From NCBI GenBank assembly GCA_017645765.1, contig JAGCNV010000019.1, positions 62,001 to 126,000 of the forward strand: 64,000 nucleotides of DNA, written 5' to 3'. The position numbers and the translations under genes are program-made. The stretch comes from a bacterium (GTDB lineage Bacteria > UBP6 > UBA1177). The notes under the pieces were generated by a model that was not told the origin of the DNA, ran no database searches, and worked only from the letters and a program-made list of their open reading frames with translations. The first letter of the stretch is position 1; the number at the start of each line of letters is the position of its first letter. Shown here piece after piece: positions 27,348-45,550 of this stretch.

Positions 27348-28868
27348 CTAAAATATCAGAGCGGAACATCCGCTGAATTTGATTTCTTCCTTGCAGATAT
27401 TGTGTGAATTGCAGACGAGTCCGGAGTCGCATCTTCCGTTTGAGTAACACTCGCCGTGAAGTTTTCCCTGTTCGGGATTGGTGTTTTCAGGATCATCTTT
27501 TTCGCTTGACTGGTCGCCGCTGTCGGCGGTATCTGAATCACCGCTGTCGGTCTTGCCGGAATCAGTATCTGCGGTATCTCCGGTATCAGTGTCGGTGTCA
27601 GTATTACCGATGTCGTGTGCAACCGTGTCGATACTGACGATGAGGAGATTCGTATAAACCTGATCCTGATTGGCTCCGATTTTGAGATTGAAACGCTTGT
27701 CTCCTTTCATAAATCTGCCGCTGAAAGGACCTGACGGGCTTGTATCAACAACAAGAATGTCGGCATCCATCGCGTATTCGATCGGATTCGTCTCGTCAAG
27801 CATATTGTCAGGATTACCGATACACCAGTAATCGTCGATGCTTTTCCATCCGAAAACCGAGGAAATCGAGTTGAACATTTCGGTATAGAGAAAAGGCGTT
27901 GTTTTCTGCGGGTTGCATTTGTTGAAGATGGGCGCGAAATTGTCCGGATCGCTCTGACCGCTGATTAAAAGACCTTCAGGGTTGTTCGAATAGACGGCAT
28001 TTGCAAGACCGGGATCACCTTCAAAAGCGACGAAAGCGAGCTTGATGACTGCTTCGTCCGGAAGTTCGAAGCCTGAGACATTGATAATTGTCGAACTATT
28101 ATTATATGCGGAAAGACCGTTGTAGAAGTAGATTTTTTTTGCGCTGATATGCGACGAAGTATAGACAAAAGGCATGAACCAACCGCCGACCAAGCCGCTT
28201 GTGGAGAGGTAGTTATGGTGATTCGAGCACTCCATATTTCTTACATTGTAGTCACCGTAAAGAGCTTCGCCTGAGTTCATACCTGCCGCTTTACCCATTG
28301 TGATAATTTCTTTCATGAAGTCGGAAACTTCGACACGATAGGTGTAAACGCCTGTGTCTCCCGCATCGTTATGCATATTCAGAGCTTCGTATTCAAAGTT
28401 GCCTATTGTAGTTGCCGCAAGGTTGCCCTGAAATGAAGCGGAGATTACCCTTGACAATGTTATTTCAGGATGTGATGCATTCTTGAAGTTAAGGGTTACT
28501 GAATTGTCAGTCAGACCGTCGAGATTGTCGGGGTCCTGAGTCGAAAGCCAAACAAGGAAAGCACGGTCAATTTCTGCGTCTTCGGGAATGTGCTTGGATG
28601 TCAAAGTGTAAGTCGAGCCGACATCCTGGTCAAGGCATGTGTCAGCCTGCGGGTTCTGCGCAGTGTTGTCATTGTCGGTTCCGGCCTGATTTACTTCTCC
28701 TGTGATACGGGCAACTAACGTTTTGTGCATGATGAAGAAGTCCCAGTTGCCTTCTTCCCATTTTAGTTCAGAGCCGTCGGGAGCGTGCGAGATACCGTTG
28801 TCGCCGATTGCCGCGAACATGAAAAATGGAAGAAAAACTATAAAAACTATCAATAATTTTTTCATCAT
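27348..28868 (-). CDS. Secreted protein with Asp/Thr linker and C-terminal GCS tag
   Basis: 506 residues. Signal peptide MMKKLLIVFIVFLPFFMFAA. A large beta-rich domain (about 20-410) of unknown family with features such as IPEDAEIDRAFLVWLSTQDPD and GFELPDEAVIKLAFVAFEGDPG is followed by a linker of Asp/Thr/Ser/Gly repeats (about 418-455) and a short Cys-rich motif (CYSNGRCDSGLVCNSHNIC). The end is F-S-G-C-S-A-L-I-F with Cys sixth from the C-terminus, the same tail as other secreted proteins here. AGGAGG precedes two adjacent ATGs (28868 or 28865). Last gene of the operon starting with an XRE regulator. 7 bp after the CsgG-like gene. Confidence 0.82.
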   Translation of the reverse strand: MMKKLLIVFIVFLPFFMFAAIGDNGISHAPDGSELKWEEGNWDFFIMHKTLVARITGEVNQAGTDNDNTAQNPQADTCLDQDVGSTYTLTSKHIPEDAEIDRAFLVWLSTQDPDNLDGLTDNSVTLNFKNASHPEITLSRVISASFQGNLAATTIGNFEYEALNMHNDAGDTGVYTYRVEVSDFMKEIITMGKAAGMNSGEALYGDYNVRNMECSNHHNYLSTSGLVGGWFMPFVYTSSHISAKKIYFYNGLSAYNNSSTIINVSGFELPDEAVIKLAFVAFEGDPGLANAVYSNNPEGLLISGQSDPDNFAPIFNKCNPQKTTPFLYTEMFNSISSVFGWKSIDDYWCIGNPDNMLDETNPIEYAMDADILVVDTSPSGPFSGRFMKGDKRFNLKIGANQDQVYTNLLIVSIDTVAHDIGNTDTDTDTGDTADTDSGKTDSGDSDTADSGDQSSEKDDPENTNPEQGKLHGECYSNGRCDSGLVCNSHNICKEEIKFSGCSALIF

Positions 28869-34583: not shown

Positions 34584-35726
34584 ATGAAAAAATTTGCTTT
34601 CGTTATTTTCTTTAGTTTTTTCTTTGCTGCGGCTCTTTCGGCGGCAGATAAACTTGTTAATGTCAGTGACGCCGGCAGCAATTGTCCGAGCGGCGGAATC
34701 AAAATCGAAGTCGGTCCTGATGCCAACGGCGACAACGAAATTGATGAACCTGCTGAAGAAACGAAGTTTGTCTGCAACGGTGAGAACGGTGAAGACGGCT
34801 CAGCACCGGCGGTTTCGATAGCACCGGCTGACGTAACTGACTGCAGCGGTAGAGGCGGCATTGTTGTTACGGTCGGCAGTGACGAACTTCCGGTATGCAA
34901 TGGTCAGGCTGGGGCAGACGCACTCATCAATACTACCGAACTGGCTGCCGATAGCGGCGAATGTCCGTGTTCGAACGGCTGCATTAAAATCGAAGCCGGA
35001 CTCGACAACAAAACAGTGAACGGCGTCCTTGATGCAAATGAAGTCACCAAAACCGAATATGCGTGCAACGGTGAAAACGGTGCAGCAGGTGCAAACGGCA
35101 AAAACGCACTGTCAAAAATTACGGAAATAACCAATGAAACCACATCTTGCAAGAACGGCGGTGTTAAGATCGAAGTCGGTATCGACGCCGACGGAAGCGG
35201 GACGCTTGAGGCTAACGAGATTGACAACAATCAAACGAAGTATGTATGCAACGGTACAAACGGCAAAAACGGCGCCACCGGTCCGACAGGTCCCAAAGGT
35301 GAAGACGGCACAGACGGTAAAGATGGTGCTAAGGGCGATCAGGGTGACAAAGGCGATCAGGGTCCTAAAGGCGATCAGGGTGAGCAGGGTGAAACAGGTG
35401 CGACAGGCGCAAACGGCAAAAACGGCGCAGGTTCCGTTGTTTCAGTCGTTGACGAACCGAAAGGTGAAAACTGCGCGGCAGGCGGCAAAAAAATCGAAGT
35501 CGGACTTGATGCAAACGGCAACGGCGCACTTGACGAAGACGAAATCGACCCCGAAAGTGTTTATTATGTCTGCAACGGGCGTGATGCCGAAGAGGCAGGC
35601 CTTGCTTCTTCATCAACAGGCTGTTCACTGGAAAGTATTGATGAAAACGGAACTTTGATGTCAGTCGTTTTTGCTTTGATGTCAATTGTTTTTGCAATTT
35701 TTGTATTGAGAAAAGCCCGCAGTTAG
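34584..35726 (+). CDS. DUF7151/collagen-like surface protein with GCS plus hydrophobic C-tail
   Basis: 380 residues. Signal peptide MKKFAFVIFFSFFFAAALSA. Four modules of DUF7151 type, each with C-x(2)-GG-x-K-I-E-x-G-x-D-x-N-G-x-L-(D)-x(2)-E and ending Y-V-C-N-G, e.g. CKNGGVKIEVGIDADGSGTL. Between the third and fourth lies a collagen-like Gly-X-Y tract (residues about 224-281). The C-terminus is S-T-G-C-S (Cys347), then SLESIDENG, a hydrophobic helix and R-K-A-R-S. This Cys + helix + basic layout parallels MYXO-CTERM/sortase-type signals. Role: probably a trimeric rod-like surface protein. Followed 9 bp later by a paralogue. Confidence 0.85.
   Translation: MKKFAFVIFFSFFFAAALSAADKLVNVSDAGSNCPSGGIKIEVGPDANGDNEIDEPAEETKFVCNGENGEDGSAPAVSIAPADVTDCSGRGGIVVTVGSDELPVCNGQAGADALINTTELAADSGECPCSNGCIKIEAGLDNKTVNGVLDANEVTKTEYACNGENGAAGANGKNALSKITEITNETTSCKNGGVKIEVGIDADGSGTLEANEIDNNQTKYVCNGTNGKNGATGPTGPKGEDGTDGKDGAKGDQGDKGDQGPKGDQGEQGETGATGANGKNGAGSVVSVVDEPKGENCAAGGKKIEVGLDANGNGALDEDEIDPESVYYVCNGRDAEEAGLASSSTGCSLESIDENGTLMSVVFALMSIVFAIFVLRKARS
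35253..35426 (+). repeat. Collagen-like Gly-X-Y repeat tract
   Basis: 58 codons, almost perfect Gly every third residue, with recurrent GDQG and GDKG units that appear as near-identical 9- to 18-bp DNA repeats (GGCGATCAGGGT and variants). Such tracts change length by slippage. Confidence 0.85.
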
Positions 35727-35735
35727 GAGGCATAT

Positions 35736-36734
35736 ATGAAAAAAATAATTCTGGTGCTTTCCGTTTTTGTCTCGGCGCAGCTGTGTGGCGCGGACTGGCT
35801 GATTGAAACGACGGATCTGAGCAAAGGCGATGAACACTGCCCGAACGGCGGAGTTCTTGTTTCTCTAGGTGAAGATTCCAATCCTAATGGTGTTCTGGAT
35901 GAAAACGATGATCTTCTGCCGCCGGTTTATGTCTGCAACGGTGAAGACGGCACAGACGGCTGCAAAATGCTGGTTGTTCCGTCCTTAAGTTCCTCCACGG
36001 AATGCAAGCCGTCTGTTACGATATCAAAAGGATTGGACTGCGATGACGACGGAAATATCGATTCGGCAGCCGATACGACCCTGTGTTACGGTAAAAGAGG
36101 GGAAAACGGCTCTATTCAAATAGATGTAGACGATGCCGAAGACGGAGCCGACGGTTCCAACGGGCAGGATGGAAAATCTTCGGAACTTGTAATGACCGAA
36201 GAACCTGCCGGAGACAACTGCAAAAACGGCGGAACGAAAATCGAGAATCATTTTGAAGAATCGGAAATTTCGGTTGAATATGTCTGTAACGGTGCCGACG
36301 GTTTGGAACCTGAAGGACCTCAGGGCGGCAAAGGACTTCCCGGCACTGACGGAAAAGACGGTGATCCAGGTGCAAAAGGTGAAACCGGAGACAAAGGTGA
36401 ACAGGGCGAACAGGGAATTCCCGGCGAACCCGGAGAAGCCGGAGCAGACGGCTATGATTCTCTGCTAAGCGTAGTCGATGAACCAGCCGGAGACAACTGT
36501 AAAAACGGCGGTAAAAAATTCCTGAGCGGAGCCGATACCGACAGAAACGGTGTCCTTGACGAAAGTGAAGTCAAAAACAGCTATTACATCTGCAACGGCG
36601 AGGATGCCGTCGAGGCAAGCGAGCAGGCGGCAAGTTCGGGCTGCTCAGTTTCTTTAATTGATGACAATTCCGGTCTGGAATCGTTTCTTTCGGTGATTTC
36701 TAATATTTGCCGGTTCGTATCGGATCTTTTCTAA
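35736..36734 (+). CDS. DUF7151/collagen-like surface protein, paralogue
   Basis: 332 residues, RBS AGGAGG. Signal peptide MKKIILVLSVFVSAQLCGA. Three DUF7151-like modules (for example EHCPNGGVLVSLGEDSNPNG, DNCKNGGKKFLSGADTDRNG) and a collagen tract (residues about 194-239). The tail begins SSGCSVSLIDDN, closely matching STGCSLESIDEN of the upstream gene, but then runs SGLESFLSVISNICRFVSDLF and stops, with a weaker hydrophobic stretch and no basic end. The final 4 bp overlap the 3' end of the convergent PNGase F-like gene, so the tail may have been shortened by that junction. Same operon as the upstream paralogue. Confidence 0.83.
   Translation: MKKIILVLSVFVSAQLCGADWLIETTDLSKGDEHCPNGGVLVSLGEDSNPNGVLDENDDLLPPVYVCNGEDGTDGCKMLVVPSLSSSTECKPSVTISKGLDCDDDGNIDSAADTTLCYGKRGENGSIQIDVDDAEDGADGSNGQDGKSSELVMTEEPAGDNCKNGGTKIENHFEESEISVEYVCNGADGLEPEGPQGGKGLPGTDGKDGDPGAKGETGDKGEQGEQGIPGEPGEAGADGYDSLLSVVDEPAGDNCKNGGKKFLSGADTDRNGVLDESEVKNSYYICNGEDAVEASEQAASSGCSVSLIDDNSGLESFLSVISNICRFVSDLF
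36315..36452 (+). repeat. Collagen-like Gly-X-Y repeat tract (paralogue)
   Basis: 46 codons with Gly at every third residue (GPQGGKGLPGTDGKDG and on), richer in Glu/Pro than the tract in the neighbouring gene. Confidence 0.8.
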
Positions 36735-38356
36735 TAAATCACAAGATAGCTCGAAAGGTAAATTTCGGCGCGGTAGCCGCTTTCGTCTGTGACGACAGGC
36801 TCGTAAATTTTTCCGTCAAGATAAGCGGAGTAGGAAAAAGTGTTGTCTCCGCTGACGAGCGCTTCGGTAATATCGATTTTTATGAGTTTCACATCCTGTC
36901 CGGGACACCATCCGGCACGTCCGTAAGGCCATGAACCGTACTGGTTGGGTACAACGCCGTCGTTTACCTTCTCAAAACAGCCGTCAGATGTTCCGGCATT
37001 GTCGAAGTTGATTACGAAATCGTTGCCGTTGACCGTGAAAACAGATTCAAACTGGCAGAATTCGGCACAGTTTGCTTCCTCTGAGCCGTTGCCGTGACCT
37101 GTTATGTAGGCGACAATTTCTGCTTTTTTTATGTCGTCGATTTTTATTGTCTGCGGCTCAAAATGCGAATTGTAGTTCTCATCAAACTGTTCGCGCTGGT
37201 TGAAAAGCGGTTCAAGCGTTCCGGCAGGCAGATCTTTTCTGACAAAAATAAAATCGAGATTGTTGACATAGTAGTCTCCGTCAACGGTAAACCTGAAATT
37301 GTATTTTCCGTTTTTATCAAACAGCGGTTTCAGCTGAGTGATGTCGGTAAGCCATTTACCGCTTCTGCCGTAAGTCGTGATCCAGCGGCCTATTTCCGTT
37401 TCGCATTTTTCTCCCGTCTCGTCGCAGAGGAAAAGCCTTTCCAATCTGTCCCATTCGCATTTTTTCGGATCATCACAAAGCTGTTCCAGCGAAATGTAAA
37501 GCTCGCCGTTTTCGGAAAGTCCTTCGAAATTTATCGAAAAATCGATAGTTTTATTCCACCCTTCTTCATCGAAAGGAACACTTTCCAAACCTTTGAATAC
37601 TGTTAAGCTTTTGGAATTTTCTTCAATGAAATCAGCGATTTTCTTTTCGTGGTCGTAAAGTTCCGCCTCTTTGTAGAGATTGTCGAATTCCGGCGGGAGA
37701 GTGCTCGAATTCCAGCTCGAAAACGATCCGCCCTGCCTTATTCTGCGGAATCTGTCTATTCCGAAGAAAAAGTCGGAATTGTTTTTCAGCAGTTCAGCTA
37801 TCCACGGATCAGTTTCCGAAGCAGGCTTCGAAACAAAATGGATCTTTTTCAGAATATCGGAGTTTCCGACCATATCGAAAGCATCGTCAACAGAATCTTT
37901 TATTATCTGAATTTTTTCTTCGACAATTTCTTCCTGGTTGTTGTCTACTAAAAAGAAAAACCGAATATTTTCAGGGGCTTTATCGAAGAGATTGTAGAGT
38001 CGCGTTGACCAGATTTTTTTACTCGTCGAGTTCGTTCCGCGGTAGAACACTAAAAGATAGTTTTCGTCTTTTGAGTAGTTTTCCGCGAAATTCCATTCCC
38101 CTGAATCAAGCGGCAGAGTGAAGTCGCAGGCGTAGTCTCCGAAAGAAGTTCCGCATTCCAGATCTTCAAAATCGGGGCTTTTCGCTTTTTCATCCGTCGG
38201 TTCCACGCCGTCTTCATCAGGATATGTTTCTTCTGCATCCTGGTCGTTCAGGATATCGTCGTCGCTATACGGTTCTTCAGTTTTTTTGCTTTCGGAACAT
38301 GCAGCAAAAATTAAAAGAACGGCAAAAACTATAAAGTACAATTTGTTGAATTTCAT
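36731..38356 (-). CDS. PNGase F-like peptide-N-glycosidase lipoprotein
   Basis: 541 residues. Lipobox FAAC (Cys20), then an acidic spacer of about 40 residues. The C-terminal 150 residues carry hallmarks of the peptide-N-glycosidase F family: AYITGHGNGSEEANCAEFC and DGVVPNQYGSWPYGRAGWCPG, matching the H-G and R-A-G-W-C-P-G motifs of the jelly-roll domains. The preceding domain (about 270-400) corresponds to the N-terminal jelly roll. Residues 60-250 look like a thioredoxin/redox-fold-like segment of uncertain identity. PNGase F cleaves the Asn-GlcNAc amide bond of N-glycoproteins. Here it sits beside several secreted proteases. RBS AAGGGG. 52 bp after the subtilase gene. Confidence 0.82.
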   Translation of the reverse strand: MKFNKLYFIVFAVLLIFAACSESKKTEEPYSDDDILNDQDAEETYPDEDGVEPTDEKAKSPDFEDLECGTSFGDYACDFTLPLDSGEWNFAENYSKDENYLLVFYRGTNSTSKKIWSTRLYNLFDKAPENIRFFFLVDNNQEEIVEEKIQIIKDSVDDAFDMVGNSDILKKIHFVSKPASETDPWIAELLKNNSDFFFGIDRFRRIRQGGSFSSWNSSTLPPEFDNLYKEAELYDHEKKIADFIEENSKSLTVFKGLESVPFDEEGWNKTIDFSINFEGLSENGELYISLEQLCDDPKKCEWDRLERLFLCDETGEKCETEIGRWITTYGRSGKWLTDITQLKPLFDKNGKYNFRFTVDGDYYVNNLDFIFVRKDLPAGTLEPLFNQREQFDENYNSHFEPQTIKIDDIKKAEIVAYITGHGNGSEEANCAEFCQFESVFTVNGNDFVINFDNAGTSDGCFEKVNDGVVPNQYGSWPYGRAGWCPGQDVKLIKIDITEALVSGDNTFSYSAYLDGKIYEPVVTDESGYRAEIYLSSYLVIY

Positions 38357-38408: not shown

Positions 38409-41030
38409 CTAGAAAACCGTTACCGAACAGCCCGATGACGATGATCCGCTGTCAGATTCTTTCATGCAGTATCCCGAGCAGCCGTCGCCGTCTATTCTGT
38501 TGCCGTCGTCGCACTGTTCTCCAGGGTCAATTAAGCCGTTACCGCATTTGTCATTGCTGTTTCCGCCGTTGTCTGAACTGTTGCCGGAATCGTTGTTGCC
38601 GCTGCCGTTATCATTGTTGTTTCCGTTATAGCAGCCCGATTTGTCCCAGCTGAGGCAGTCTAGCGCACATTTTGCAGTGCCGTTTTCAGGTGCACCCGCA
38701 AGCTGGCTGCACTGGATTGTGTCGCCGTCGCATACTTCTCCCGGGTCTATATTGTTGTTTCCGCAGAGAACTCCGCCGCCGCCTTCACATGTGCTTGTGT
38801 CGTAACCGTTGCAAGTTTTGTTGCAGTATGCGATTCCGCCAGTGAAGCGGTCGTCAATGGATTTGCAGGATTTATAGCCGCCGTCGCATTTTTCTCCTTC
38901 TTCTTTAACGTCGTTTCCGCAGTTCGCGACAGTCTCGGTCCCTTTCGGAAGAATTTTGTTTGAAATGCATGCGTAACCCGAGCGGACAGTGTTGTAGCTG
39001 CATTTCGCAATGCACTGACCCTGATAACATTCGACTTTGCTGTTGCCGTTGTAGCAGTCATTGTTTTTCGTGCATTCAGCAGAGCAGTAGCCGCCGTTCC
39101 AGCCTTCATCGGTTATACACTTCGGATTTGTCGCAGTATTTATACAGTCTGATGCAGCGGAACATGCATCGCCTGTCCTGCCCTTGGCATTGTCAGGGCA
39201 GTTGTTATCAATTACTCCGTCGCAGTCGTCATCTTTGTCGTAGTAATTTCCGAAGCAGCCGTCAACAGATGAAGTTGCAACGCATTCACCGCATGTTCCG
39301 TTCTTTGCGCCGACAACCATTGCATTGGCGTCAACTATACCAAAACCGTAACACGGAGAATGTTCTTTCGAACCAGCTTCGATATGTTCGTCTTGCTGCA
39401 TTGTCCAAGAACCTTCGGAACAGGCGTTTGAAGGTTTGCGTGCGGAAGATTTTATGCAGTTCATTGCCCCTGAGAACGTAAGCGCGGGATTTGCCGCCAG
39501 CATAAGCGCTACCGCTCCTGCTGCTACCGGTGTTGCAGCACTTGTTCCGTTCATTCCACTTGTGTAGTCGCCGTTGTTGTCAAGGCTGTATATTCCGTTG
39601 TATGCGTAACCGTAGGTTTTGCCCTGAATATCAGTCGTATTGTTTCCGGCACCTGCTGAGATATCGATTTCAGTACCGTAGTTGGAGTAACTTTCCAGAG
39701 AACCTGACTGCCCGAGTGCGCTGATTGTCAGGAAGTCGTTGTCTTGTAGGAATTTGTTCTGGTTAGTGTTGCAGTGAGAGTTCCCCGCAGCCCAGAGGAA
39801 AATTGTTCCTTTGCCGTTTCTGCCGTTATTGCGGCCGTAATCGACACCCTGCGAGCTGTTGTTGTCTGCCGGAACACCTGTGCAGTTTCCGTATCTGTCG
39901 ACATCCTGCGCTCCCCAGCTGTTGCTTACGACCCATGCACCGTTGTCAACTGCATATTTCATAGCCTGCAGTGTTGCATCGCTTGCAGTTGACTGACCGC
40001 TCGTCCAGCTATAATCATCAACAATAAGCCTTATCGGAATGATCGGACATCCCCAGCATGAAGCAGAAACACCGAGTCCGTTGTTTGTCTTTGCCGCAGC
40101 AAGACCTGCGCATGCGGTTCCGTGCGGAACGCCTTCATGGTCTTTACCACCGTTCTGGGTGCCGCCATAGGTAGGAACATTCGGTGCGCCGCCGAGATTT
40201 CCGATAAAGTCTTTCCCAAGATTTGAAAGGACATTAAGGTCCGGATGATTCAAATCGACACCCGTATCAACAATTGCGATTCTGACATCCTTATTTGCGG
40301 CAGTTTCTGTATCCCACGCTTCCGGTGCATTTATCTGCGTCAAGTGCCACTGCTGTGAGAAGTATGTGTCGTCCGGAGTCGTTGAAAGCGGCTTGAAGTG
40401 CCAGATCCAGTTCGGCTGAGCCCAGCGGACAAGACGTCTTTCGAAAAGAGCATTGGCAATCGCGAACGGATCAGAACCGGCAGGAAGAGAAACCATGTAA
40501 AAATTCAGGTCTTCATCGATTTCAACAACTTTAAGCCCAAAAAGTTCGAGAGTTTCCTCTTGCTCTTCTCTGCTTGTGTACTTCGTGAAAACAATGTTCA
40601 TTGTGCCGTCGAGGACTACAGGAGCGTCGTCTGCGTGATATGTGAGGACCGGCCATGCAGCAATTCCGTTTTTGGCAAGAATATTACGTACCTGAAACCA
40701 ATTGTTGCGGTCAAACTCGTCAAGGTTTATTTTGAAAGCTCTGAAATTCTGTACATCGAAAGTCACTTCAGAAATCATGTCGGTGATCTGGATGCCGTTG
40801 AACTCCAGACCGCGCAGAGAGTTCAAATCAACGGAGTGTGGAATAGCGATTTCGTCATATTTCTGCAACAAATACTGCGGTTCACCGTCCATATGATAAT
40901 AAAAAGTATCGTAAAGCCTACCGTTTCTTTCGATAAGTTTTCCGAGAATAGGCAGTTCCTGATCCGCAAAAAGAACTGAAAAGAAGCAGATTGACAAAAG
41001 AAGAGTAAATGTTTTCCTGAAAGCAGGCAT
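38409..41030 (-). CDS. S8 subtilisin-like protease with Myxococcus-type Cys repeats and GCS tag
   Basis: 873 residues from the ATG at 41030 (GGAGG 8 nt upstream, direct signal peptide MPAFRKTFTLLLSICFFSVLFA). The open frame continues 147 bp upstream without an RBS. A propeptide-like region (25-220) precedes the catalytic domain: Asp255 in IAIVDTGVD, His303 in VPHGTACAG, Asn near 417 in WAAGNSH, Ser497 in GTSAATP. The C-terminal part has disulfide modules and two Myxococcus-type repeats (CGNNNIDPGEVCDG, CGNGLIDPGEQCDDGN). The end is S-S-S-S-G-C-S-V-T-V-F after an Asn/Gly/Asp linker. Secreted or surface-displayed endoprotease. Confidence 0.93.
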   Translation of the reverse strand: MPAFRKTFTLLLSICFFSVLFADQELPILGKLIERNGRLYDTFYYHMDGEPQYLLQKYDEIAIPHSVDLNSLRGLEFNGIQITDMISEVTFDVQNFRAFKINLDEFDRNNWFQVRNILAKNGIAAWPVLTYHADDAPVVLDGTMNIVFTKYTSREEQEETLELFGLKVVEIDEDLNFYMVSLPAGSDPFAIANALFERRLVRWAQPNWIWHFKPLSTTPDDTYFSQQWHLTQINAPEAWDTETAANKDVRIAIVDTGVDLNHPDLNVLSNLGKDFIGNLGGAPNVPTYGGTQNGGKDHEGVPHGTACAGLAAAKTNNGLGVSASCWGCPIIPIRLIVDDYSWTSGQSTASDATLQAMKYAVDNGAWVVSNSWGAQDVDRYGNCTGVPADNNSSQGVDYGRNNGRNGKGTIFLWAAGNSHCNTNQNKFLQDNDFLTISALGQSGSLESYSNYGTEIDISAGAGNNTTDIQGKTYGYAYNGIYSLDNNGDYTSGMNGTSAATPVAAGAVALMLAANPALTFSGAMNCIKSSARKPSNACSEGSWTMQQDEHIEAGSKEHSPCYGFGIVDANAMVVGAKNGTCGECVATSSVDGCFGNYYDKDDDCDGVIDNNCPDNAKGRTGDACSAASDCINTATNPKCITDEGWNGGYCSAECTKNNDCYNGNSKVECYQGQCIAKCSYNTVRSGYACISNKILPKGTETVANCGNDVKEEGEKCDGGYKSCKSIDDRFTGGIAYCNKTCNGYDTSTCEGGGGVLCGNNNIDPGEVCDGDTIQCSQLAGAPENGTAKCALDCLSWDKSGCYNGNNNDNGSGNNDSGNSSDNGGNSNDKCGNGLIDPGEQCDDGNRIDGDGCSGYCMKESDSGSSSSGCSVTVF

Positions 41031-41143
41031 TTTTTCACCTCCAAAAATTATCAAAACAAAAAACTTAAAATCTAAGCAAAAACAATGCCTTAGAAAAATG
41101 GTTAATAAAATCGGCACATTTTTCAAAGCACTAAAAACTAATA

Positions 41144-41171
41144 ATTGTAGCCTCAAAAAAATCAAAATCAA
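41144..41171 (-). promoter_or_regulatory. Promoter of the GCS-tagged subtilase gene
   Basis: Minus strand: TTGATT (41166-41171), 16-bp spacer, TACAAT (41144-41149). The leader to the ATG is long (about 105 nt, A/T-rich). It lies just before the stop of the upstream hydrolase gene. Confidence 0.6.
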
Positions 41172-41176
41172 GTGCA

Positions 41177-42154
41177 CTAACGAGAAAGGAACACACTGTC
41201 GAAAAACTGTTGTCTTGTATGCTTGATCCGTTCTTTCCTTTCGGGTTTGTCCGGTGTCGGGTGAGTCGAGTTGGTGAGAAGCGCCGCTATAGTTTTTGTT
41301 TCGGGATCAATAAGAAAGGCTGTGCCGGTGAAGCCGAGATGGCCGAAGAATCTCTGTTTTGCCGATTTTCCGTAGTTGGAATCGTCTCCTTCAGGTCGGT
41401 CAAAACCTGCAAAACCGAGTTTTTGCGCAGTCGGCAGAAACCATGCCGTTTTCATCAGTTTTTCAAAATATCTGATGATTTCCGAAGCACTTCCGAAAAG
41501 TCCTGCATGTCCTGTCAGGCCGCCCAGAAACCACGAGTTTTCATCCTCAACTGTTTTATCCGGGAAATCTCCGCGCATTTTTGAGAATGCTGTTTTTGGA
41601 GTCTTTTCTTTCGGACTGTATGTGAGGTCGTAATTCAAATTGTTGAGTTTTTTGAAGTTTTCGAAGATCTCGTCGATCGGCTGATTGAATGTTTTTTCAA
41701 GAATGAAGCCGAGCAGAAGGTAGTTGAGGTCGCTGTAACACTTAGTTTTGTCGGAAGTTTGATGCTCAAAAATGATTTTTTGAGTCTCTTTTTTCCTTTT
41801 TTTCAAAGATTTTTCCGAAGAAACAAGCTCGTAAAACGGCAGCCATGCAGGAAAACCGGAGGTATGGCTTAAAAGCTCAAGAATTGTTATGTCGCTTTTG
41901 AAATCTCCGAAGAAGCGGGAAATTTTTTCGTTTTCGGAAAGTTTTTTTGATGAGAAAAGATCGTAGAAAACAGGAACCGTAACGATCGCCTTTGTCAGCG
42001 AAGCCAAGTCGAACTGCGTGGTATCGTTGATTTTTTCAGCTGATTCAAAATCAAATGTTCCGCCGCATCCGCACGAAAGGAGTCCGTCTTTCAAAAATGC
42101 GTACTGATAGGAGGAATAAAGTTCTGAATCGATATTTTTTTGCAGAAAATCCAT
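41177..42154 (-). CDS. Beta-lactamase-family serine hydrolase
   Basis: 325 residues, no signal peptide. Class C beta-lactamase/PBP-like fold: S-x-x-K nucleophile motif in FDLASLTKAIV (about residues 51-54), ILELLSHTSGFPAWLPFY, the tyrosine motif KCYSDLNYLLLG (Y-x-N-like) and a C-terminal RFFGHLGFTGTAFLIDPE segment with HxG-like HLG-FTG. Family members are D-Ala-D-Ala peptidases, esterases or amidases. Resistance activity is not implied. The start overlaps the metalloprotease stop as TAATG, so it is coupled to that gene. Confidence 0.88.
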   Translation of the reverse strand: MDFLQKNIDSELYSSYQYAFLKDGLLSCGCGGTFDFESAEKINDTTQFDLASLTKAIVTVPVFYDLFSSKKLSENEKISRFFGDFKSDITILELLSHTSGFPAWLPFYELVSSEKSLKKRKKETQKIIFEHQTSDKTKCYSDLNYLLLGFILEKTFNQPIDEIFENFKKLNNLNYDLTYSPKEKTPKTAFSKMRGDFPDKTVEDENSWFLGGLTGHAGLFGSASEIIRYFEKLMKTAWFLPTAQKLGFAGFDRPEGDDSNYGKSAKQRFFGHLGFTGTAFLIDPETKTIAALLTNSTHPTPDKPERKERIKHTRQQFFDSVFLSR

Positions 42155-44481
42155 TAGAAAACGGTCATTGAGCAGCCGCTGCTTTTCTTTTCTTTCTTCG
42201 GTTTGTCGTCGCTGTAGATATCGTCGTCGCTTGTTTCGTCGCTGTCTCCTGCAATTTCTTCATCGGCATCGCTGATGATTCCTTCGTTATCGTTTCCTTC
42301 CGATTCAGGCTCTGACGGAATACATTCTTCTTCCGAACTCCACGATGTTTTTGCTTTAGGATAAGCCAGAAGTCCCGCAGGTCCTTTGTTTATGAAGTTA
42401 ATGTAGTATCTTTTGCCGGGTTCGAGATTTGTGAAAGTCCATCTTCCTTTTTCTTCGCTTTCTACGACATAATCGTATGTCACAATGCTCGGATAGTCAT
42501 GTTCCCAGATTACCGGCTTACCTTCGCGGACAAGAGCTGTCAATTTGGGTGCGTTTCTCTGGCTCTGGCTCCCTGTCTCATCCATAAGAGTTCCCGTTAT
42601 TGTCAAAGTATCGATACATTCAGGAACATCGATGTAAAACTGGACATAAAAAGGACTGACTTCTTCAACATCGCCGTCTTCGTTTTCTATAAAGGTTGTT
42701 GCGGTCGAAACCGAGTAGCGTCCGTCACCGACACCGCCCATATAGAAATAGTCGGCGTGATTCATAACGTTTCTTGCCCTGATTTCTTCAAAATAACCTC
42801 TGTCGGTGAGAATTTGTTCGAAATCGCCTTTAAGAGCCGATGCAGGGCTTGATGCAGCTGCTTCGAGCATGAGTTCTCCCCATTCCTTGTAGCTGATCTC
42901 GCTGTGAGGGACAGATACGAGCGCGGTAAGGAAAATCTTTGCAAAATCATCTCTCGTGAAACCTTTTTCGAGCATTTTCTGATAAATTTCCCAGTGTGCT
43001 CCGACAAGCGGAAGACCGTCGTTGTGACTTTCACCGTTGAAATCCTCGTTTACCTTGTTCGGGTTTGTCGTAGTTCTCAGACAAAGCTGCCCGTCAAGGT
43101 TTACAGCTCCGCCCATCTGACCGGTCCCTTTCGCAACATACTCGGCAAGACAGGGATCCTCTGTGATTATGAACGAGAAAACATCCGCCATACCTTCGTT
43201 CATTCCCATGATTTCATTGGTGAAACCGTATTCGTCAGCCCATCCTTCGTATGCGAACTGCGCAATGCCGTCAACAATGCCGTGACCGAATTCGTGATAA
43301 ATAACGTCACCGTCGTAAGAGAAATCGGCATTTGTACCCTGACCGAAAACAAGGGCGTCGCTTTCGTTGTATTCAAAATCACCGTAGAACATTTCGGCAA
43401 ATGCGGGATCGTATTTGCTGAAGAAAGCGTTGTCCATCGGCTTCAGGTCAGACGTGTTGTATCCGGCGTAGTAGCCCATCATCTGGAAGTTGGCAATTCC
43501 GACTATCGGCTTGGTTCCTTCATGGTTCGGAAGTTCGGTGTATTCCTTGAGACCGAGTCCTGCAAGATAGTTGTAAATTTTAGTCATGTGGTAGTAAAGC
43601 GCGATTTCGGGATAAATGTCTTCGGTGTCGAGCTTGTAGTTGAGACCTTTATTCCAGTCTTCGTAGATGAAACTGCCGTTTTCTTCTTTGTTTGCAAGCT
43701 GCTTAACTGTGCAGCGCGGAAATGAGTATCCGTAATAGTCGGATTCTTCGCCTAAATCGGGACAGTTTGCCGCAACGACTTTTCTGAGCCCTTTCTCATC
43801 TGCAGCAGCAGAAAGGTAACCTTCAGCGTCGTCTCCGACCCAGAGAAGGTCGACTTCTATCGGATCGGGAGTGCTGATCGGGTTCATATCGAAAACTTTA
43901 GCCTTGTTTGTCGCAAACTTTACGAGGTTGCCTGTGCGGAGAAGTCTGCCGTTTTGTGCATCAACGAAGAAAAATCTGCCGTCAACAGGGCTCATCGGGC
44001 GGAAGCGGATGCGGTATGCAAGTCTGTAGTTTCCCGAGTCTTCGAGTATCACGAGTTTTGCTGCGAAATCGGGTTTTTTTGCCGGATCGCCGAAATGTTT
44101 TCCGTTCAGCGTGAGAGCAGCCTGTTCAGCCGAAATAGCCGGTTTCGTGTCAATTGAAAAATTTCTCAAGCCGTTGACAATGCTGAAAATTTTTCCGTCT
44201 TTCTCTTTGATTACGGTGAATTTGCCTACGACCGGAAGACCGTTGTAATTCCATGAAACTCTGTGGATAGCGGTTCCTGAGATCGTGTTCGAATTCTGGA
44301 TTTCCCCTTTGAAAAGCGGGCTTTTGAGCGATATCATTGCCGGAAGTTTCTGCTCTACGAAAGCAGACATATTTTTGACGGCAAGAGGTTTTGCGGGTTT
44401 AATCACGTCAAATTTCGGTTTTTCACCGAAAAGAGCGAAAGCCGCGAAGAGAATCGCGAGTGCAGCAACTAATTTTTTCAT
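42154..44481 (-). CDS. M36/M4-like secreted zinc metalloprotease with GCS tag
   Basis: 775 residues from the second ATG (44481), 6 nt beyond AGGAG. The first ATG at 44487 touches the Shine-Dalgarno sequence. Signal peptide, then an FTP/PepSY-like inhibitory propeptide (about 40-200: TAIHRVSWNYNGLPVVGKFTV and LAYRIRFRPMSPVDGRFFFVDAQNG), then the catalytic domain with zinc motif HEFGH (His396, Glu397, His400) and downstream MNEGMADVFSF supplying Glu429, the fungalysin/thermolysin (gluzincin) pattern. C-terminal beta domains follow, then an acidic spacer and the end K-S-S-G-C-S-M-T-V-F. Residue numbers count from 44481. Secreted endopeptidase. Confidence 0.9.
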   Translation of the reverse strand: MKKLVAALAILFAAFALFGEKPKFDVIKPAKPLAVKNMSAFVEQKLPAMISLKSPLFKGEIQNSNTISGTAIHRVSWNYNGLPVVGKFTVIKEKDGKIFSIVNGLRNFSIDTKPAISAEQAALTLNGKHFGDPAKKPDFAAKLVILEDSGNYRLAYRIRFRPMSPVDGRFFFVDAQNGRLLRTGNLVKFATNKAKVFDMNPISTPDPIEVDLLWVGDDAEGYLSAAADEKGLRKVVAANCPDLGEESDYYGYSFPRCTVKQLANKEENGSFIYEDWNKGLNYKLDTEDIYPEIALYYHMTKIYNYLAGLGLKEYTELPNHEGTKPIVGIANFQMMGYYAGYNTSDLKPMDNAFFSKYDPAFAEMFYGDFEYNESDALVFGQGTNADFSYDGDVIYHEFGHGIVDGIAQFAYEGWADEYGFTNEIMGMNEGMADVFSFIITEDPCLAEYVAKGTGQMGGAVNLDGQLCLRTTTNPNKVNEDFNGESHNDGLPLVGAHWEIYQKMLEKGFTRDDFAKIFLTALVSVPHSEISYKEWGELMLEAAASSPASALKGDFEQILTDRGYFEEIRARNVMNHADYFYMGGVGDGRYSVSTATTFIENEDGDVEEVSPFYVQFYIDVPECIDTLTITGTLMDETGSQSQRNAPKLTALVREGKPVIWEHDYPSIVTYDYVVESEEKGRWTFTNLEPGKRYYINFINKGPAGLLAYPKAKTSWSSEEECIPSEPESEGNDNEGIISDADEEIAGDSDETSDDDIYSDDKPKKEKKSSGCSMTVF

Positions 44482-44518
44482 TTTCATCTCCTAAAAAAAC
44501 AAACTTAAAACTGTTAGC

Positions 44519-44659: not shown

Positions 44660-45550
44660 TTAGATGAAAAGCAGAGAACAGCCGTCGGATTTGCTTTCTT
44701 CTTTGTTTTCTGCCGGTGCTGCGGTGTTGCCGTCAGCCTTATCTGCAGGTGCTGCGCCGGTTGCCGGTGCTTCGGTATCTGCAGTATCAGCGACGCTCTC
44801 TTCCGACGGCTCGTCATCACTTATAAACAAACCGCAGGCTTTGCAGCAGTCTTCCTCTGTGCAGTTTTCAAGACATTCCCATTTGGTTCGCCATTCTTTT
44901 ATGTCATCATCTTCTCCCCACTGACAACAATTGGAAATTGCTCCGCTAATGTGATTGCCGTATGCAGGAAAATCAAGAATATCTTCAATATCTTCGACAT
45001 ATTCAATATCTTCAACATAGTCATTGAACCAGCGTCCATAGCAAGTTTCAACAGGTTTTATGTATGTGACACATTCATTTAGAATTTCTTGATCCTCACA
45101 GACATCCCTTATCTTTGCAAGCTCGGTTCCGCATATTTCGACAAGTTTGCTCTTGCATGATTCTTCAGCGAATTCCGCAGTTCCGGTGTATGCTCCTTCT
45201 ACAGCTCCGTTTGCCGAGTATACTCCCCAGCAGCTGCAAAGATATTCGCCGTTATCGCTGATATTGCATCTTCCGGCATCGTTTTCGCAAGAGAAGTTGC
45301 CTTTTTTGCAATACGTATTGGCGTCAACGTTATGGGAGCAGTCCAACTCTCTCGGCATAGCAGCCGAATTTGAATGATTGTTGATTTTGTCATAACTGCC
45401 GCCGTCACAGGTGCAATATTCGTGGAACACCGTCCCGTCAAGTTCATAGACGCATGTTCCTGCCTCTGATTCACATGTCATCGTCTCAGTTTCAGCAAAA
45501 AGTGTTGCCGCCGCAAGCATAATTGCGACCAAAATCAATGTCTTTTTCAT
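44660..45550 (-). CDS. Cys-rich secreted protein with GCS tag
   Basis: 296 residues. Signal peptide MKKTLILVAIMLAAATLFAE. Mature part has about 27 cysteines in the first 230 residues, including CCQWGEDDD, CLENCTEEDCCKAC and three early C-x(n)-C blocks (CESEAGTC, YCTCDGG), probably all in disulfides. An Ala/Asp/Thr/Pro linker of about 45 residues follows, and the end is K-S-D-G-C-S-L-L-F-I with Cys sixth from the C-terminus. No family recognised. It is 23 bp after the subtilase gene at 45574-47505 on the same strand, so both may be produced together. Confidence 0.8.
   Translation of the reverse strand: MKKTLILVAIMLAAATLFAETETMTCESEAGTCVYELDGTVFHEYCTCDGGSYDKINNHSNSAAMPRELDCSHNVDANTYCKKGNFSCENDAGRCNISDNGEYLCSCWGVYSANGAVEGAYTGTAEFAEESCKSKLVEICGTELAKIRDVCEDQEILNECVTYIKPVETCYGRWFNDYVEDIEYVEDIEDILDFPAYGNHISGAISNCCQWGEDDDIKEWRTKWECLENCTEEDCCKACGLFISDDEPSEESVADTADTEAPATGAAPADKADGNTAAPAENKEESKSDGCSLLFI

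Follow-up and report, generated by a model that had tools for sequence, protein, structure and literature searches.

The window analysed here is the whole stretch of 64,000 nucleotides of contig JAGCNV010000019.1, to which coordinates refer unless another locus is named. Two neighbouring genes on its forward strand encode collagen-like proteins with cysteine-containing C-terminal tails, and four genes on the reverse strand encode proteins ending in a short cysteine tag, as follows.

34584-35726 (+), collagen-like/DUF7151 secreted protein of 380 aa (ORF; PF23657 in four stretches and PF01391), signal peptide MKKFAFVIFFSFFFAAALSA
35616-35723 (+), its long (tripartite) tail TGCS-LESIDENGT-helix-RKARS, Cys347 codon at 35622-35624
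35655-35708 (+), hydrophobic helix LMSVVFALMSIVFAIFVL of the long tail, 15-residue hydropathy maximum 3.10
35709-35723 (+), basic end RKARS of the long tail, read from the sequence
35736-36734 (+), second collagen-like/DUF7151 protein of 332 aa with a signal peptide (ORF, domain search)
36639-36731 (+), its intermediate tail GCSVSLIDDNSGLESFLSVISNICRFVSDLF, an amphipathic helix, Cys303 codon at 36642-36644
27351-27371 (-), short tag GCSALIF, read at the end of the secreted protein 27348-28868
38412-38432 (-), short tag GCSVTVF, end of the S8 subtilase 38409-41177, whose family f4 homologues are long-tailed
42157-42177 (-), short tag GCSMTVF, end of the M4/M36-like metallopeptidase 42154-44487 (sequence read, domain search)
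44663-44683 (-), short tag GCSLLFI, read at the end of the secreted protein 44660-45550

Translation of 35616-35726 gave TGCSLESIDENGTLMSVVFALMSIVFAIFVLRKARS*, the C-terminal end of the first collagen-like protein, in which 9 linker residues separate GCS from an 18-residue hydrophobic helix, and RKARS closes the chain. The second collagen-like protein carries SSGCSVSLIDDNSGLESFLSVISNICRFVSDLF. The first-pass annotation, which was made from the sequence alone, had noted that the two motifs start with the same G-C-S and that the first protein shows a tripartite arrangement of GCS, hydrophobic stretch, and RKARS; both tails were indeed read in the sequence, and the arrangement was borne out by the hydropathy maximum and by three K/R among the last eight residues. 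The long tail was retained in all genus orthologues read. The tripartite layout, taken as a Cys motif, a membrane helix, and a basic end on an exported protein, was met by the first gene, its genus orthologues, and proteins of f4, a sister family within the phylum, but not by the short tags or the second gene. Elsewhere in the source genome, two large exported DUF11-repeat proteins of 1051 and 1038 aa (L281:15366-18521, - strand, and L295:4622-7738, + strand) have long tripartite tails beginning with Cys-Ala.

At its stop, the second collagen-like gene shares 4 bp with the convergent gene 36731-38356 (-), as had been stated in that annotation; the convergent gene ends at 36731. The hydrophobic stretch of the second tail had also been judged the weaker one. 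This held for the hydropathy maximum (only 1.28 vs 3.10), but the tail does not look like a weak copy of the first, as it corresponds to a conserved amphipathic helix with a hydrophobic moment of 0.63. The membrane helix and the basic end are absent. Pairwise dN/dS among five orthologues, calculated over the 30-codon tail, was mostly 0.1-0.4, with two higher pairs (about 0.6 and 0.9) where dS was low; the tail is mostly under purifying selection. It is possible that it represents a third, amphipathic-helix form of the signal. Alternatively, it could be a long tail that has decayed and lost its function, a reading in keeping with the lack of a membrane helix and a basic end and with four genus members in which the protein stops at a short tag instead. 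The mostly low dN/dS and the strong amphipathicity rather suggest a form kept for binding to the membrane surface, and we consider decay unlikely, although it cannot be discarded.

The long form runs from GC[SA] through a polar linker and the membrane helix to the basic end; the short form was defined as [G/S]C[S/T/A] followed by a few mostly hydrophobic residues, with the protein ending 3-6 residues past the Cys. All four tagged proteins of the window stop exactly 5 residues past it. The patterns GCSxxhF-stop and GCSxxhh-stop had 6 and 22 matches, respectively, in the source genome; when reversed, each matched 0 times. GCSxxhh-stop was also enriched in 15 genomes of the genus (271 vs 10 for the control), in the rest of the family, f1 (48 vs 5), and in family f2 (10 vs 0). 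The main form in family f3 was GCGC[ST]hxx-stop, found 14-20 times per near-complete genome against 0-1 in the control. The number of residues past the Cys was mostly 5 in f1 and mostly 4 in f3. Neither f4 (9 vs 8) nor a set of 52 genomes from other phyla (105 vs 81) was enriched in GCSxxhh-stop, and no short tag was found in 933 kb around the myxosortase-like genes of Myxococcota and other taxa.

Proteins bearing the short tag had signal peptides wherever the N-terminus was present, acidic low-complexity linkers after the signal peptide, and often a KKKSS-type basic patch directly before the tag. They include S8 subtilases, the M4/M36-like metallopeptidase, a C25 peptidase, and a multi-copy family of approximately 300 aa ending in GCSMLFI. 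Members of this last family, which are secreted and acidic, are dispersed in the source genome (L043, L064, L066, L069, and L049/L050) and nearly all end in SDGCSMLFI or SNGCSMLFI; the one member scanned had no Pfam match. An N-terminal lipobox was detected in 2 of 38 tagged exported proteins vs 197 of 488 untagged ones (p about 3e-6); a third flagged tagged case looks like a false call. This rarity is expected if the tag itself is the anchor, although one short-tagged protein (L300) apparently also has an N-terminal lipobox, which counts against that reading.

The relationship between long and short endings was examined in orthologous proteins. Within the genus, the second collagen-like gene has a long-type amphipathic tail in 6 genomes; in 4 others (G001, G003, G008, and G012), the same Cys belongs to a short tag (endings GCSLTLF, GCSLTVL, and GCSLTIL), and a tree of the protein without its tail required one switch between long and short, with 99/99 support. 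Between families, DUF7151 proteins have a long tripartite tail in f2 (GCSIVTTDESEGNLLAALLIGLLALLVFRRRLS) and a short one in f3, and S8 subtilases have long tripartite tails in every f4 homologue for which the tail was read (e.g. SSGCSFENSSSSNSIIMILLSILSSLFIFRRKLQ) and short ones in f1-f3. Thus, the two forms occupy homologous positions in orthologous exported proteins. A profile of the long tails looked too information-poor for searching; sampled DNA was scanned instead with one classifier throughout, consisting of simple ORF calling and hydropathy thresholds. It yielded 7 long and 0 short tails in 382 kb of f4, 0 long and 29 short tails in 1.16 Mb from two f3 genomes, and 3 exported long tails and 7 short tags in 464 kb of the source genome; f1 has both forms. 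Discounted from the figures for the source genome were a short match at 2-793 of the window, which has no GC, and two long matches without a signal peptide, and the absence of long tails from f3 refers to the DNA sampled, not to whole genomes. Among the exported proteins of the source bacterium, the short ending is far commoner than the long one.

These comparisons, which are of sequence only, support the view that long and short tails represent alternative states of a single C-terminal cysteine sorting signal. Judged by the predicted tails, they also show that in the order containing f1-f3 the long form has been replaced by the short one, largely in f1 and apparently wholly in f3. The suggestion in the first-pass annotation that the short tags may be the same signal minus the helix is thereby strengthened, since orthologues swap endings at the same Cys both within the genus and between families. 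It had further been held that independent assortment of the two forms among genomes would refute a common signal. The forms proved to sort by lineage (only long in f4, only short in f3, both in f1) and do not always occur together. Regarding the further expectation that both forms accompany the same processing enzyme, the single-copy myxosortase-like protease found alongside the two forms is indeed of one kind; that one enzyme cleaves both is only inferred.

The source genome contains a single PF02517 (Rce1-like) gene. Its best NCBIfam matches were MrtP (83 bits), MrtC (78 bits), and Mrt_core (NF040914; 77 bits, cut-off 100), all below the cut-off; MrtJ gave 60.5 bits against a cut-off of 75, and f4 copies reached up to 103.7 bits with Mrt_core. 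One strong copy was found in every f1-f4 genome examined except one that is 65% complete and still has tags. The residues E122, E123, R127, H161, H198, and N202 (EExxxR, H, and HxxxN) were invariant in 15 aligned sequences, and structure prediction gave a confident seven-helix bundle. Foldseek found nothing significant in the PDB, and a profile search of PDB sequences likewise returned no significant match; hence, the Rce1 assignment rests on sequence. No conserved neighbouring gene ties the protease to the tags across families, no operon partner emerged, and the protease tree of the genus was unresolved. The gene abutting the protease upstream (L074:7552-8961), which is also present in another genus member (L142), encodes a membrane protein that is weakly P-type-ATPase-like (18 bits).

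Where examined, the protease co-occurs with Cys tags that have many members, short in f1-f3 and long in f4. Since f3 keeps the protease and no long tails were found in its sampled DNA, short tags are the simplest substrates there. We infer that the short tags are probably substrates of this myxosortase-type protease. It could be argued that the short form, though the same signal by descent, is no longer cut: the Cys would be lipidated or otherwise linked, the stub would stay, and the protease would serve only the few remaining long tails or other substrates. Release of the protein from the membrane would not require the removal of so small a stub, and some long tails do persist in f1 genomes. 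This explanation seems rather improbable to us given the retention of the protease in f3, where 1.16 Mb of sampled DNA held 29 short tails and no long one, and given that the residues past the Cys stay hydrophobic and restricted in length across families, as expected if they are read by an enzyme.

PDZ domains and tail-specific proteases commonly recognise a hydrophobic C-terminus. The short tag might be a separate signal, directed e.g. at type II secretion or read by a PDZ-type receptor or tail-specific protease, and have only GCS in common with the long tail; the source genome does have a GspD match above the cut-off. We find this hard to maintain when orthologous proteins swap long and short endings at the same Cys and when the short tags of f3 carry GCGC, the generic motif described for MYXO-CTERM (PMC11980579), and we give it little credence. 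Finally, wider short-tag patterns do match often by chance (50 vs 29 for the control), but chance C-termini or an annotation artefact were excluded by the counts of the specific pattern in the source genome and the genus, with the signal peptides and acidic linkers of the owners and the lack of enrichment in f4, in other phyla, and around the myxosortase-like genes of other taxa pointing the same way.

In Myxococcus xanthus, MrtX cleavage depends on the tag Cys, and proteins are displayed on the surface by way of type II secretion (PMC11980579). MrtX functions in E. coli; hence, the authors propose Lgt as the lipidating enzyme (PMC11980579). Genomes of the present phylum had 3-7 Lgt-family matches each, against one in most other phyla. 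The source genome has five Lgt (PF01790) paralogues, at C78:41899, C65:25065, C22:53998, C22:18755, and C7:85433 (L394, L395, L289, L287, and L396, respectively). These paralogues are candidates for the enzyme that lipidates the C-terminal Cys, which is a lead and not proof. Among genomes of other phyla, at least two Lgt copies were present in 4 of 8 with a strong myxosortase-like match vs 5 of 44 without one (p 0.02); phylogeny was not controlled, and in some places the data were fragmentary. Several non-canonical paralogues have the motif GCCFG where the canonical copy has GNFxNSE. In an f3 genome (G021, L399:2967-6725), a protein of 1252 aa combines an Lgt-family domain with a two-component-type beta-propeller and an AraC-type HTH in one chain, and similarly long open frames were seen for this paralogue in G020, G022, and G023.

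Here, we propose a route in which Sec would export the tagged proteins and Lgt, or one of the extra Lgt paralogues, would lipidate their Cys at the exported side of the inner membrane. The protease would then cut just past the lipidated Cys, taking the helix and basic end off long tails and a stub of 3-6 residues off short ones, in analogy to the removal of -aaX from CAAX proteins by Rce1. Surface anchoring would follow lipidation and stub removal. The hydrophobic stub of the short form may by itself stand in for the membrane helix. We regard it as likely that one signal in two states operates through Sec export, Cys lipidation, and protease cleavage; processing and lipidation are inferred, without biochemical evidence.

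Myxosortase and other CTERM signals, as described in the literature compared, include a membrane helix, which is thought to hold the protein until processing. Across an entire order, the bacteria studied here retain the protease and the Cys and have mostly dropped the helix. The paired natural substrates make it testable whether the helix is necessary and whether the Cys is lipidated before cleavage, and annotators gain a recognisable tag of surface proteins that the curated models tried have missed. The phylum bearing the tag, inferred to be the uncultured UBP6, is found in rumen samples; the nearest named records to the source genome were mostly rumen and ruminant-gut MAGs, two of which carry the label UBP6 (UBA1177 and UBA1196).

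The MYXO-CTERM model TIGR03901 matched neither the window proteins nor the isolated long tail; a Deltaproteobacterial tail from L171, used as a control, scored 30.9-32.7 bits (cut-off 20). No CTERM model of NCBIfam was found on proteins with long or short tails. The JDVT-CTERM model NF033191 aligned over its full length with an f4 long tail at 22.7 bits, below the cut-off of 27, and had no match in the long tail of the window. Even so, the long form is, to judge from its composition, laid out like a MYXO-CTERM/JDVT-CTERM signal and presumably works like one, though no curated model accepts it. With the MYXO-CTERM/MrtX system of Myxococcota, it shares exported target proteins, an invariant C-terminal Cys, and a helix with a basic end, and the GCGC motif recurs in the f3 short tags; an Rce1-like glutamic intramembrane protease and a type II secretin are likewise present. 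Unlike in that system, most UBP6 tags lack the membrane helix and basic end, the protease falls below the curated cut-offs, and TIGR03901 misses the long tail. The resemblance to JDVT-CTERM/MrtJ lies in the full-length alignment of the f4 tail and the match of the protease to MrtJ, both below the cut-off. In MrtJ systems, however, one enzyme is paired with one target (mBio paper) instead of dozens as here, and the short form is no part of the described system.

The tag also resembles the lipoprotein lipobox processed by Lgt/LspA, with a small residue-Gly-Cys-Ser around the modified Cys and possibly lipidation by the Lgt family, but it is C-terminal and of opposite polarity, and tagged proteins rarely have an N-terminal lipobox. 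No description of a helix-less Cys tag was found in the myxosortase/CTERM literature, in a search that did not include the original myxosortase discovery paper; within the literature compared, the helix-less form is a new variant of myxosortase/Cys-CTERM systems.

In a CAAX protein, the Cys lies exactly 4 residues from the C-terminus and is prenylated in the cytosol. The UBP6 tags do not meet this definition, as mostly 5 (f1) or 4 (f3) residues follow the Cys (range 3-6), in place of 3, and their owners are exported by signal peptides; the lipid and the transferase have not been identified. In common with the eukaryotic and archaeal CAAX/Rce1 system, they have a C-terminal Cys followed by aliphatic residues, a free C-terminus without a membrane helix, and a PF02517 protease. 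On balance, we favour, without great confidence, the idea that bacteria here possess a CAAX-like box that acts on the exported side: an entire order would have shrunk a three-part, membrane-anchored Cys signal to a Cys and 3-6 residues, with lipidation and Rce1-type cleavage proceeding without a transmembrane anchor, and the long, amphipathic, and short tails would be the evolutionary intermediates.
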